Source: Gemmatimonadaceae bacterium (GTDB lineage: Bacteria; Gemmatimonadota; Gemmatimonadetes; Gemmatimonadales; Gemmatimonadaceae). From it: DNA of 64,000 nucleotides. Shown here one piece after another: positions 51,950 through 56,319 of this stretch. Every line of letters begins with the position of its first letter. Within the stretch, counting starts at the first letter, position 1. A program made the position numbers and the translations under genes. The notes beneath the pieces are model-generated. The model did not search any database. It saw only the letters and a list, made by a program, of their open reading frames with translations, and was not told the origin of the DNA. The DNA lies in NCBI GenBank assembly GCA_020852815.1, contig JADZAN010000046.1, positions 124,001-188,000 of the forward strand, in the 5' to 3' direction.

Positions 51950-51971
51950 TCAAGTTCGGATGAGAGCAGAG

Positions 51972-52011
51972 GACGAGAAGACGAGAAGACGAGAAGACGA
52001 GAAGACGAGAG
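51972..52011. repeat. Tandem octamer GACGAGAA, four copies plus a GACGAGAG variant
   Basis: Four exact units (51972-52003) and a fifth differing at the last base (52004-52011) lie between guaB and the gene ending at 52026. It is one base away from the octamer repeat at 17413-17452. Confidence 0.9.
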
Positions 52012-52025
52012 GAGCGATGCGTTCG

Positions 52026-52469
52026 TCAGGAGGGGGAGGGGTTCTCGTTCTGGTCGGGGGTGGGTGGGGCGTCGGTGGCGGGGGGGGTGGTGCCTGGGGC
52101 GGGGGTCTGCCCGGTGGTGCTGCCGCTGCTGGTGGTGGTTTGGGTCACGGTCTTGGCCACGTCGCTCGCGGTGTTCACGATGTCGGTGGCGACCGACTTG
52201 CCGGCGGCCGCGACGCCGTTGAGGACCCCCATGGCCTGGTTCAGGAGCCCCATGGTCTGCGAGATGGCCGATGCCGACACCTTGCCGGCGCGCAGCGTGT
52301 CCTCGACCCCTTCGGTGAAGCGGGTGAAGATGTTCGCGGAGGGCGACTCTTTCTGCGCGTAGCGCGACGCCATGAACTCGACGTAGTCCAGGACGGCGTA
52401 GCCCTTTTCGTCCGAGAGGGTATCGAGCTGGCGGACGATGCGGTCGCGGAGGTGGGGGGAGAGGGGCAT
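52026..52469 (-). CDS. Small protein of unknown function with low-complexity tail
   Basis: The 147-residue protein starts MPLSPHLRDRIVRQLDTLSDEKGYAVLDYVEFMASRY, which resembles DUF2281-type N-termini but is not a confident match. A helical middle (about 60-105) and a Thr/Pro/Ser-rich tail follow (about 105-147). There is no signal peptide. It is on the same strand as the M15 peptidase cluster, after the G-rich repeat element. Confidence 0.6.
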   Translation of the reverse strand: MPLSPHLRDRIVRQLDTLSDEKGYAVLDYVEFMASRYAQKESPSANIFTRFTEGVEDTLRAGKVSASAISQTMGLLNQAMGVLNGVAAAGKSVATDIVNTASDVAKTVTQTTTSSGSTTGQTPAPGTTPPATDAPPTPDQNENPSPS

Positions 52470-52606: not shown

Positions 52607-53653
52607 TCAGCTGCGCCAGCGCGCCTTCTCGCCGCGCGCGTCGATGTGGGCGTAGGAGGCGCCGCCCTGCGTGTAGACGCCCAGGCCGCCCACGAGGTCG
52701 GGGTACTTCTTTTCGACGATCTCCACCGCCAGCTCGATCAGTCGCACGTCCTTCGCATTCACCACGCCGTCCCGGTTGGCATCGATGGCCACGTCGGCGG
52801 CGTCGCCGTACTGGTGACGCGAGTCGGCGGCGGCGCGGGGGACGCGCCGGTTGTACAGCGGGGTGCGGAAGCCCGAGTGAACGTCGACCTCGACCGGGGC
52901 GCGCCCTTCGCCGCCGTGCCAGCTGGCGATCTCGTCGAAGATCAGCTCGAGCTTGTCGAGGAGGCGCCCGTCCACCGCCGCATAACGAGGCCACCCCTTC
53001 TGTTCATCGTGCGTGATGAAGTCGCCCACGCGCATGTGCGCCGACAGCGCCAACTCGGCGAGCGGCTGCTCGATCTCGAGAAAGCCGCGCGGCCCCGGCG
53101 TCGTATCGCCCGTGCGCTCGCCGTTGTAGTAGCCGATCTGGTAGCCGTTGAGTGCACCCCCCTGCTTCTCGCCAAACGGGACGAGGACGGCGAGGGTGAG
53201 CGAGTCGATGATGGTGGCGCCGCCGCGGTTGCGCACCGCCAGCCGGTAGAAGCCGGGTCGCCGCGGGGCGTCGAACGTTCCCGCCACGGCACGCGCGGTA
53301 TCGACCGAGGCCAGCTCGCCCAGCGGGATCCACTCGAACGTGACCGACGACGGCGCGGCATCCAGCTCGAGGGGGAACTGCACGCGTTCGCCGGGGAGGG
53401 CGAAGCGCATGTTGACGCCGCGGCTGCGGCCGAGTGCCGTGGCCGCGAGGCGTGCGACCGGCGGCGGCGGCAACGGCTCCACGGCGGCCGGCGGGCCGAA
53501 GGCGGCGTCGGCCTTGCGCAGCGCCAGGAAGCTGCCTAACGCGAGGATGACGAAGGCGAGCGCGGAGATGGCGCGCGTGCGGAACTGACTGGCGCGCCGC
53601 GCCTGGCGCGGCGGCGGCGGATACTGCGGGAAGTTCTCGAACGGATTGGACAC
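52607..53653 (-). CDS. M15-family (D-Ala-D-Ala carboxypeptidase-like) peptidase with a dockerin-type calcium loop
   Basis: The 348-residue membrane-anchored protein has an N-terminal transmembrane helix (about 28-45) and a Pro-rich stalk. A C-terminal zinc-peptidase domain follows: VDVHSGFRTPLYN, SRHQYGDAADV (metal His and Asp) and YAHID (third ligand). Inserted right after the metal site is DANRDGVVNAKDVRL, an EF-hand/dockerin-type calcium loop. It should trim peptidoglycan stem peptides. The upstream paralogue (53660-54658) has two such loops, so this is a tandem duplicate pair. Confidence 0.85.
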   Translation of the reverse strand: MSNPFENFPQYPPPPRQARRASQFRTRAISALAFVILALGSFLALRKADAAFGPPAAVEPLPPPPVARLAATALGRSRGVNMRFALPGERVQFPLELDAAPSSVTFEWIPLGELASVDTARAVAGTFDAPRRPGFYRLAVRNRGGATIIDSLTLAVLVPFGEKQGGALNGYQIGYYNGERTGDTTPGPRGFLEIEQPLAELALSAHMRVGDFITHDEQKGWPRYAAVDGRLLDKLELIFDEIASWHGGEGRAPVEVDVHSGFRTPLYNRRVPRAAADSRHQYGDAADVAIDANRDGVVNAKDVRLIELAVEIVEKKYPDLVGGLGVYTQGGASYAHIDARGEKARWRS

Positions 53654-53659
53654 CGCGCC

Positions 53660-54658
53660 CTAGCTCCGCCCCCAACGCGCACGCGAGCCGCGCACGTCCA
53701 CGTGCACGAACGGGCCGTGTGCCGACGTGGCGCGATACAGTCCCGCCCCACCCACCAGCTCCGGATAGTTGGCCTCGATGCGCTCCACCGACTCCAGCAC
53801 GACCTTCGCGTCTCGCGTGTCGACACGCCCATCGCGGTTGAGGTCGTCCATGCGCCCGTCGCCGTTGTTGTCGACGAAGACGTCGGCCGCGTCGCCGTAC
53901 TGGTGTCGCGAGTCGGTCGCCCGCCCGCCACGCTTCCCCACCCCCTGGGCGTTGTACTGCGGCGTCCGGAAGCCCGACATCACCGAGAGGCGCGCCACCG
54001 CGTAGCCACGGGTGCGAAGGTCGGTCATCAGGAGTTCGAGCTTGTCCACCAGCGCCTCGCGCAGCACGAGGTACTTGGGCCAGACATCCTGCTGGTCGTG
54101 CGTGAGAAAGTCGCGCAGCCGGAAGTTGTCCGAGAGCTGCGTGTCCTGGTTGGACGGCGTGACCTCGATGAATCCCTCGGGCGACTTGGTCGAGGCCCAG
54201 AGCCCTCGCTTCTCTCCCGGCCAGAAGCCGACGCGGTAGCCGCCCAGCTTCCCGCGCTCGCGCGCCTGGAAGGGGAGGAGGTTGATGAGCGAGAAGCGGC
54301 GCCCGCTGGCCGAATCGGCCGCGTGGTAGATGCCCGGGCGCTGGATGGCGCTGTCGCCGAACAGCTCGCGCAGGATGCGGATGCCGCTGTCGCGCCGCGG
54401 CGAAACCAGGCGCGCGCGCAGCTTCCCGCTGCGCCCAGCCATGCTGTCGGGAAGCGGGACGGGGGCGCTCGCCGTGACCGCGCCGACCACCGGTGCGCTG
54501 GCGTTGAGCGCCCCGACCGCCGGATACGACGCGGCGGCGCTGGCAGGAGCCAGCGCGGCAACCGCGAACGATGTCAGGGAAGCGCGAATGGCGCGCGAGA
54601 GGTGGGGCACGAAGCGGATGTCCCGTCTTCCGGTGGAGGCCAGATCAATTTCGGTCAT
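53660..54658 (-). CDS. M15-family peptidase paralogue with two calcium loops
   Basis: The 332-residue protein is a divergent tandem paralogue of the next gene. It has a signal/anchor segment (about 25-48), a shared fold with LGGYRVGFWPGEK and the C-terminal zinc motifs MSGFRTPQYN, DSRHQYGDAADV and FVHVDV. After the metal-site Asp are DNNGDGRMDDL and LNRDGRVDTRDAKVV, two dockerin/EF-hand-like loops in a row where the neighbour has one. Six bases separate the two genes. Expected role: peptidoglycan peptide cleavage in the periplasm. Confidence 0.83.
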   Translation of the reverse strand: MTEIDLASTGRRDIRFVPHLSRAIRASLTSFAVAALAPASAAASYPAVGALNASAPVVGAVTASAPVPLPDSMAGRSGKLRARLVSPRRDSGIRILRELFGDSAIQRPGIYHAADSASGRRFSLINLLPFQARERGKLGGYRVGFWPGEKRGLWASTKSPEGFIEVTPSNQDTQLSDNFRLRDFLTHDQQDVWPKYLVLREALVDKLELLMTDLRTRGYAVARLSVMSGFRTPQYNAQGVGKRGGRATDSRHQYGDAADVFVDNNGDGRMDDLNRDGRVDTRDAKVVLESVERIEANYPELVGGAGLYRATSAHGPFVHVDVRGSRARWGRS

Positions 54659-54757: not shown

Positions 54758-55615
54758 TCAGTAGATGTAGACGGGAGTCCCCACCGGGACGATGCGGAAA
54801 AGCGTCTCGATGTCCTCGTTGCGCAGGCGCACGCACCCGTGCGACGCGGCGCTCCCGATCGAGCTGGGGACGTCGGTACCGTGCAGCGCGTAGCCGTCGC
54901 CCAGGTTGAGGCGGTGCGTCCCCACCACCCCGGGAAAGCGACGCTGGTTGGTCCCGAACGGGGGAATGACGACCTGCCCGTTGACGATCAGGTCGCGCCC
55001 CTCCCCAGCCTCCAGCACCTCGACCGTCCCGTCGGGCTGGCGGCGAACGATGTTGCTCCCGTCCACGGCGAGGGTGTCGCCATTGGGGAGTGGAATGAGG
55101 TCGCTGCGCTTGAGCGCCAGGAGGCCGAGCTTCTTCTTGTGCGCCACCTCGACATAGTGCCAGTCGGGGGGGACCCAGGCGGGCTCGCTCTCCTTGCTCT
55201 GCACCACGAGGCGCCCGCGCGGCGTCTCGAACTTCCACTGGTTGCCGCCCCCCTTGTCGAGGACCTTCCCGCTCCCGGTGGCAACGCGCGTGGTGAAGAG
55301 GAGCGAATCGCCATCCCGATACCACAGGCGGCGGTCGGCGATGCTCACCACGATGTATGCCCGCCCCTGCGTCGTATCGACCGGGGCGTCGACGATGGTT
55401 TGCAGCGAGTCAGACACCGCCCCCACTTTCCGCTTCACGTCCTCGAGCACCTCGAGGTTGTCGTTGAAGACCATGCGGGCCACGTCGCGCTTGTAGCGCG
55501 CCGTGACGGTGGCGGCGCCAAGTCCGGCGCTCCCCACCAGCAGGAGGGCGACGAGCGTCACGAGGACGCGCGCCGGCGTCCCGCCGTGCTTGAGGAAGTG
55601 CTGAACGTGGCTCAT
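54758..55615 (-). CDS. L,D-transpeptidase (YkuD domain)
   Basis: The 285-residue membrane-anchored protein has one N-terminal helix (about 16-35) and a C-terminal YkuD catalytic domain. The active-site His is in YALHGTDV, and the Cys in ASHGCVRL 15 residues later. It forms 3-3 cross-links in peptidoglycan or attaches proteins to it. The ATG overlaps the stop of the upstream paralogue (ATGA). It lies in a run with two M15 peptidases, which would supply or trim the same stem peptides. Confidence 0.92.
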   Translation of the reverse strand: MSHVQHFLKHGGTPARVLVTLVALLLVGSAGLGAATVTARYKRDVARMVFNDNLEVLEDVKRKVGAVSDSLQTIVDAPVDTTQGRAYIVVSIADRRLWYRDGDSLLFTTRVATGSGKVLDKGGGNQWKFETPRGRLVVQSKESEPAWVPPDWHYVEVAHKKKLGLLALKRSDLIPLPNGDTLAVDGSNIVRRQPDGTVEVLEAGEGRDLIVNGQVVIPPFGTNQRRFPGVVGTHRLNLGDGYALHGTDVPSSIGSAASHGCVRLRNEDIETLFRIVPVGTPVYIY

Positions 55616-56319
55616 TCGTAGAAGTACACCGAAAGTCCCGGCGTGATGATGGGGGCGATGGCGCGCAGGTCGCGCCGCGACATGCGCACGGCACCGGGCA
55701 GAACATACCCACTATCGGCCAGGAGGCCGGAATCGGGGAGGGCGTAGATCACCGTCCCTCCCGTGAGGACGAGCGCATCGCGCCCCAGGACACCCGGCAG
55801 GAGGCGGTCGCTTGGGGGGGGCGTCGCCATGTCGCCAAAGACCCAGGTGGGGACCTCCCACGCGTCGCGCGGGCGCAAGACGCGTTCGACCGAACGTGCC
55901 CCCCGGGGGCGCACCACCCGCACCGTTTCCGCTCCCCCTCCCACGACCCGCTCGGCGCCGAGTTCGACGCGCATCTGCCGCAGGAGCGCTCCGTCGCGCT
56001 CGAGGAACATCGTCCCGCTGTCCATCGCCACCGACAGATGCAGGGCACGGTCGCCCGACGCCTGTCGCCGAATGAGTTCCAGCATGACGGCGACCTTGTT
56101 CTCTTCCGACTCGGCGACCATGTCGGTCTTCTGGCGCTCGGACTCGGACATGCCGGCGCGCAGCCGAGCCGTCTCGCCGCGATAGCGCAGGTAACGCACG
56201 CCGAGGATGGCGTCGCCCACCTGGAAGAGGGCGATGAGCGTGGAGAGGATGGCGACCGTGCGCGGGTACGCGCGGCGCAGCGCGGCGAAGCCGCCCGCGG
56301 GATGATGCGGCGCGCTCAT
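55612..56319 (-). CDS. Catalytically dead L,D-transpeptidase-like paralogue
   Basis: The 235-residue protein has one N-terminal transmembrane helix (about 21-40) and a charged, probably coiled segment. Its C-terminal domain aligns with the downstream YkuD enzyme: YALPDSG against YALHGTD, then GAVRMSRRDLRAI against GCVRLRNEDIETL, and LSVYFYE against TPVYIY. Both catalytic residues are lost (His to Pro, Cys to Ala). It is thus probably a regulator or scaffold of the true enzyme, translated with it through the ATGA overlap. Confidence 0.75.
   Translation of the reverse strand: MSAPHHPAGGFAALRRAYPRTVAILSTLIALFQVGDAILGVRYLRYRGETARLRAGMSESERQKTDMVAESEENKVAVMLELIRRQASGDRALHLSVAMDSGTMFLERDGALLRQMRVELGAERVVGGGAETVRVVRPRGARSVERVLRPRDAWEVPTWVFGDMATPPPSDRLLPGVLGRDALVLTGGTVIYALPDSGLLADSGYVLPGAVRMSRRDLRAIAPIITPGLSVYFYE

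Follow-up and report, generated by a model that had tools for sequence, protein, structure and literature searches.

The window, that is, the whole stretch of 64,000 nucleotides from a Gemmatimonadaceae bacterium that was analysed, carries on its minus strand two neighbouring genes, here called A and B, whose open reading frames are both complete, are spaced by six bases and encode tandem paralogues with 42% identity over the compared part (Table 1). The most hydrophobic 17 residues of each protein are located at the N-terminus (28-44 in A, 29-45 in B), and these segments fit the export of both proteins, which is probable. By hmmscan, A is over the cut-off of Peptidase_M15_2 (33.2 vs 27 bits) and under that of M15_3 (21.4 vs 23.2), and in the six-frame search it is under the former (24.2, cut-off 27) and over the latter (23.6, cut-off 23.2). 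B is under both by hmmscan (M15_3 22.6 vs 23.2; M15_2 20.9 vs 27) and over the 23.2 bits of M15_3 in the six-frame search (24.3). The M15 ligand motifs SxHxxGxxxD and HxD, whose residues we take from knowledge of the family to bind zinc, are found in both proteins, and the ligands are invariant across alignments of 26, 77 and 51 sequences. Within SRHQYGDAAD the S, R, H, G, A and last D are invariant in the alignments of relatives. The equivalent residues of YcbK are named as His169, Asp176 and His209 in the accessible part of PMC3927764. A search of the bacterium's own genome with A (E <=0.001) gave four places, A and B themselves and two elsewhere whose products are 50% and 47% identical to A.

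Table 1. Features of the A/B locus; positions are those of the window.
Feature	Position	Strand	Description
Gene A	53660-54658	minus	M15-type zinc peptidase of 332 aa, probably exported; long form with weak unit and conserved loop
A SRHQYGDAAD (residues 250-259)	53882-53911	minus	Predicted zinc ligands H252, D259
A first unit DNNGDGRMD (residues 263-271)	53846-53872	minus	Weakly conserved, 58/108 distinct A-type segments
A conserved F-hand-type loop DLNRDGRVDTRD (residues 272-283)	53810-53845	minus	Strict motif in 99/108
A helix after loop (residues 281-297)	53768-53818	minus	DSSP on AF2 model
A HVD (residues 319-321)	53696-53704	minus	Predicted third zinc ligand H319; H and D invariant
Gene B	52607-53653	minus	Tandem paralogue of A, 348 aa; short form (one loop); hydrophobic N-terminal segment
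B SRHQYGDAAD (residues 278-287)	52793-52822	minus	Predicted zinc ligands H280, D287
B conserved F-hand-type loop DANRDGVVNAKD (residues 291-302)	52748-52783	minus	Strict motif in 61/62
B helix after loop (residues 300-316)	52706-52756	minus	DSSP on AF2 model
B HID (residues 336-338)	52640-52648	minus	Predicted third zinc ligand H336; H and D invariant
YkuD L,D-transpeptidase (LDT), SHGCVR motif	54758-55615	minus	Upstream of A; YkuD E 2.9e-25
LDT-like protein without catalytic Cys	55612-56319	minus	Two-sequence BLASTP with adjoining LDT gives E 4e-7
Small protein between B and guaB	52026-52469	minus	Match in 72/100 loci examined; family matches all under cut-off

Upstream of A lie an L,D-transpeptidase (LDT) and an adjoining LDT-like protein, in which PGAVRM (P-GAVR) aligns with the SHGCVRL stretch of the LDT. 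SHGC[VI]R is kept in 56/56 aligned LDT rows, and the Cys is absent from the motif stretch of the LDT-like protein in all 48 loci having a match; judged by its sequence, the latter protein seems to be an L,D-transpeptidase partner that is inactive yet conserved. Downstream of B there is a small conserved protein and then guaB. A tandem repeat with a unit of about ten bases (gacgagaaga) occupies approximately 51970-52010, between guaB and the small gene, and a repeat-like translation also occurs beside the paralogue on contig C15 (L002). Among 100 loci (L034-L113, L116-L135), an operon neighbour accompanies A and B together in 53, A alone in 13 and B alone in 9 (L123, entered as B in this count, is mislabelled), and it is absent from the other 25; the loci were picked by similarity to A, some by hand, and these shares are not natural frequencies. 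For 60 operon copies the upstream sequence extends over 1.7 kb or more; 47 of these have an LDT match on the same strand within 1.5 kb upstream, and three of the remaining 13 (L070, L071, L073) have one further off.

The initial annotation had pointed to calcium-loop sequences close to the zinc motif in both paralogues, and the strings it quoted are present as written on the minus strand. Open frames of at least 60 residues in the six frames of the window (102,235 residues) contain three Dx[DN]xDG cores, all of them in A and B and between zinc ligands two and three. Out of 20,000 shuffles, 39 (A) and 14 (B) produced the full 12-residue loop by chance, and 302 (A) and 164 (B) the core by itself. 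The confinement of the three cores to A and B and their rarity in the shuffles therefore place the motif beyond chance, and the ligand pattern at positions 1, 3, 5, 6, 9 and 12 of a Dx[DN]xDG calcium loop is matched. The combination of peptidase and loop, proposed as something to look for in other genomes, is widespread among the relatives collected: 204 rows gave 170 distinct segments, 108 of A-type (124 rows) and 62 of B-type (80 rows), and 99 of the former and 61 of the latter retain D.[DN].[DN]G. By position, the A-type loop has D1 in 108, D/N3 in 106, D/N5 in 108, G6 in 101 and D12 in 108 segments, and the B-type loop has D1 in 62, D/N3 in 62, D/N5 in 61, G6 in 62 and D12 in 62. Taking both types together, Asp occupies positions 1 and 12 in 170/170 segments and D/N position 5 in 169/170; the anchor pattern used for the A-type demands Asp at 1 and 12, none of the 108 segments failed it, and an anchor-free column count on an earlier, smaller locus set gave D at both positions in 97/97 (A) and 53/53 (B). 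Calcium binding by this conserved loop is likely.

The two paralogues differ in the number of units, although not as one loop against two. B has the single loop ascribed to it. As far as its sequence tells, A has one sound loop and one overlapping weak unit rather than two independent loops, since D.[DN].[DN]G of the first unit is intact in only 58 of the 108 segments, one group reading like VNGARDWMS, and Asn274 is at once position 12 of the first unit and position 3 of the second loop. By register with the helix that comes after it, the loop of B matches the second loop of A. The zinc motif had been described as followed at once by the loops, which holds for B, with its loop starting 4 residues after the zinc Asp, and not for the conserved loop of A, which starts 13 residues after it. 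Thrombospondin-type-3 repeats, considered for the double unit of A on account of the overlapping pattern, were absent from the Pfam matches up to E 10.

The structures predicted by AlphaFold2 have a mean pLDDT of 91.3 for A (alignment of 77 rows) and 90.9 for B (51 rows), and ten-residue blocks across the loop reach 96-97 in A and 96 in B. In both models the strand bearing the zinc Asp leads straight into the loop, and a 17-residue helix assigned by DSSP begins at loop position 10 (residue 281 in A, 300 in B). A helix starting at position 10 is the canonical register of an EF-type loop and its exiting helix. The incoming element is a strand in both models, so the arrangement is strand-loop-helix and not the helix-loop-helix of an EF-hand; loops of the Dx[DN]xDG type bind calcium in strand-loop-helix contexts, according to the accessible part of PMC3123361. 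The top VIA-align rows for both models, in lists used for M15 and Hedgehog rows only and at Z values near 8 that are modest, are M15 peptidases and Hedgehog, which points to an M15 fold: 1lbu for A (Z 8.5, rmsd 3.7, 125 aligned), LysECD7 (8.9, 3.1, 112), 1lbu (8.6, 3.2, 121) and ChiX (8.0) for B, and Hedgehog at approximately 7 for B (up to 7.5) and approximately 6 for A. For A, a Foldseek search of the PDB yielded nothing at E <=0.001, with Ply500 (1.3e-3) as its best match, and PDB searches with the single sequences of A and of MepK returned chance-like matches only. In the PDB profile search the zinc half found 1lbu (E 9.5e-5), and the loop-helix half found dockerins, with a best E of 2.7e-4 from two stretches and all others at 0.05 or above. 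Together these data support the description of A and B as M15-type zinc peptidases with a predicted calcium loop of EF/dockerin type between zinc ligands two and three. The placement of that loop in the active-site region is right in terms of sequence; in space, the loop is separated from the zinc Asp by a predicted strand, which should take the calcium site to some distance from the zinc.

An acidic loop in this position might also be a sequence relic, or serve solubility or substrate charge, without binding any metal. The degenerate first unit of A in about half of the relatives indicates that the region tolerates some ligand loss, which fits such a reading. However, the Asp residues at positions 1 and 12 of the conserved loop do not vary, position 5 departs from D/N in a single segment, and the helix begins at position 10 in both models, and we regard a loop without metal as very unlikely.

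The loop-helix element also resembles the F-hands of type I dockerins, sharing the pattern D.N.DG.V(D/N)..D and the helix that comes after it, and it had been proposed to dock a partner; a dockerin-like module for a partner such as cohesin is the form this idea would take. The resemblance in sequence consists mostly of weak matches. Pfam Dockerin_1 (PF00404) gives A 10.3 and B 13.1 bits, far under its cut-off of 22.9, and the name dockerin is not warranted: unlike type I dockerins, which have two, A and B have a single sound loop-helix, and it sits within an enzyme, inside the catalytic domain and between the zinc ligands. Elsewhere in the genome, Dockerin_1 does exceed its cut-off in two domains, L114 (C16:7286-7450) and L115 (C45:16677-16841). 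The Pfam cohesin model, which matches in 1/14 control genomes, is without a match in this genome. Docking is thus scarcely credible as the function of the loop.

Calcium within the M15/Hedgehog fold is already known from the T5 endolysin and from Hedgehog, the T5 loop being placed elsewhere than that of A and B. We take the zinc ligands of the T5 endolysin, EndoT5, to be H66, D73 and H133, residues that are present at those numbers in its sequence, and its calcium loop to extend presumably from 113 to 123. The accessible part of PMC10487532 lists W114, G118 and H121 in this loop, and reports that EndoT5, an M15_C peptidase, is activated by calcium via a mobile loop close to the active site. 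EndoT5 resembles A and B as an M15 zinc peptidase whose sequence places a calcium loop between the second and third zinc ligands; its loop, however, comes after the central helix, toward the third zinc ligand, whereas that of A and B lies between strand and helix. Hedgehog and the bacterial Hedgehogs (M15A-like, with Zn and two Ca) share the fold and unite zinc and calcium in one domain, but their calcium ligands are other acidic residues and precede the zinc motif, which we take to be located at H141; to our knowledge the Hedgehog calcium site has no Dx[DN]xDG loop. Those ligands are E90, E91, D96, E127, D130 and D132; Hedgehog is described as calcium-regulated in the portions available of PMC8052667 and PMC6027127. 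In the open-access literature searched, no loop of this type was found at this place of the M15 fold, and the part of PMC6403190 that is accessible describes none. LysGH15, another lysin, is likewise a peptidoglycan hydrolase with an EF-like loop, its calcium site being called 'EF-hand-like' in the title of a paper. The calcium-binding CHAP domain of LysGH15 has the unrelated fold of a cysteine peptidase.

These precedents bear on whether calcium would act as a regulatory switch in A and B, ordering the loop and helix and opening or completing the zinc site, so that wall cutting follows external calcium. The nearest experimental precedent, the T5 endolysin, uses calcium as a switch, and the calcium regulation of Hedgehog, of the same fold, leans the same way. 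Against it, the EndoT5 loop is on the other side of the central helix from that of A and B, and the latter is confidently predicted to be ordered and hardly varies in either paralogue. Furthermore, a single non-paired F-hand in the calcium-containing periplasm suits constant occupancy. A switch is therefore unlikely, and in our judgement a structural staple is preferable, because the loop is near-invariant, is confidently ordered in the models and would reside in the periplasm, a compartment normally supplied with calcium.

E. coli MepK (YcbK; Peptidase_M15_2/DUF882), a peptidoglycan L,D-endopeptidase, is one of the closest known systems. Its zinc motif, GGxGxY and HxD blocks align with those of A and B, one-against-one profile comparison with the A/B family gives E 7.3e-7, and its gene is directly behind an L,D-transpeptidase gene, ldtD, as A and B usually are behind theirs; MepK differs in being without a calcium loop. 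MepK acts with the L,D-transpeptidase YcbB (LdtD) on 3-3 links, as stated in the accessible parts of PMC9249393 and PMC12729407. Given the order behind LDT, the same order of mepK and ldtD in E. coli and this reported joint action, a shared role of A, B and the LDT in 3-3 cross-link turnover would be the likeliest. The 3-3 specificity as such is a guess, since A and B score 23.2 and 12 bits, far below the cut-off of 185, with the MepK equivalog NCBIfam NF053624. A and B could instead be calcium-stapled enzymes that cut another bond, as D,D-carboxypeptidases or L-Ala-D-Glu endopeptidases, unrelated to the LDT. The closest folds would agree with this, namely 1lbu (a DD-peptidase), LysECD7 and ChiX (by its title an L-Ala D-Glu endopeptidase), yet fold does not set specificity, and the conserved order behind LDT and the profile similarity to MepK speak for a connection with the transpeptidase; we regard another bond as the less likely outcome.

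We thus consider it probable that A and B are exported, MepK-like M15 peptidases that cut the 3-3 links of the co-encoded LDT and hold one calcium ion as a structural staple. Both enzymes would cut or trim peptidoglycan stem peptides and would probably open the 3-3 cross-links made by the transpeptidase. The turn joining the ligand strand to the central helix, between the second (Asp) and third (His) zinc ligands, would have become an F-hand-type loop, with calcium ligands at positions 1, 3, 5, 9 and 12. The single ion, probably always bound in the periplasm, would cap the central helix and fix the strand presenting the zinc Asp, and would act in this way as a staple holding the active site in shape, neither as an on/off gate nor as part of a docking module.

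The family was traced in 121 genomes drawn from the phylum, 51 of which have a match at E <=0.001: 41 belong to the window's family (its own genome included), 6 to another family of the order, two of them by short stretches only, and 4 to other families of the class. A scan of a genome collection gave 199 relatives, and the 80 examined are mostly labelled Gemmatimonadota or its genera, the exceptions being three Acidobacteriota, one Kuenenia and two plain 'bacterium' labels. The short form was found in 80 loci, which belong to the window's family or bear the labels Gemmatimonadota or its genera, except for L049 (Kuenenia), L058 and L095 (both 'bacterium'). The A and B of L049, labelled Candidatus Kuenenia stuttgartiensis, group with Gemmatimonadaceae rows, and its contig is probably mislabelled or mis-binned. 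Of the more distant families, eight loci (L116-L123) were examined, and all are of the long form. The two further members in the window's genome, L002 on contig C15 and L003 on contig C9, are also long, with the first-unit core intact in both (DANRDG and DDDGNG, respectively).

In a quick tree of 129 rows A and B fell on opposite sides with weak support (68, 66), and the MepK branch had a length of 7.2. A more careful tree was obtained by dropping MepK and one long phage row, thinning to 73 rows and leaving out the loop columns; its root consists of three loopless phage peptidases at the end of a long branch, and the terminal branches of L120 and L121, two of its four basal rows, are long as well. 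Here B forms one clade (100/99) nested in the long form behind a 98/94 branch, and A is basal and paraphyletic. The long form is probably ancestral, and a single loss of nine residues in B is the likeliest course, as B is nested in the long form; this reverses the modular gain suggested by the initial annotation. The ancestral trait would be the length, and a second calcium site is not surely ancestral, because the basal rows, although all of the longer length, mostly have a first unit that is not a clean calcium motif.

Loopless relatives have a short turn in place of the loop, which reads EGIALSNI in MepK; two of the four phage sequences have QGISVEQV and KGVKPLDV, and the T5 endolysin has NGKIDWNDLE. 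The F-hand may have grown on this short strand-to-helix turn of loopless M15 enzymes. A phage origin was considered and rejected, the viral and phage relatives inspected being without the loop. In viral contigs a single-sequence scan found no relative and an alignment scan found 37 distant M15 relatives, none of which shows D.[DN].[DN]G in the 45 residues that follow the zinc motif, although L179 ends with its contig after 14 residues. A further 60 phage records match weakly, with the loop absent in all four that were inspected, and plasmids gave no match. A broader proposal would make these proteins a Gemmatimonadota-centred group of Zn/Ca L,D-endopeptidases, opening 3-3 cross-links and usually encoded beside an LDT and an inactive partner of it, in which external calcium sets activity or lifetime and the F-hand arose in place; we hold it to be speculative and quite improbable.

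With A and B, the zinc fold of M15 peptidases and Hedgehog would gain one more calcium site, at a different place, from which the loop might govern the strand bearing a zinc ligand. Moreover, in the conserved operon a maker of cross-links and their presumed cutter travel together, and the two paralogues constitute a clean pair for asking whether calcium stabilises such an enzyme or switches it.
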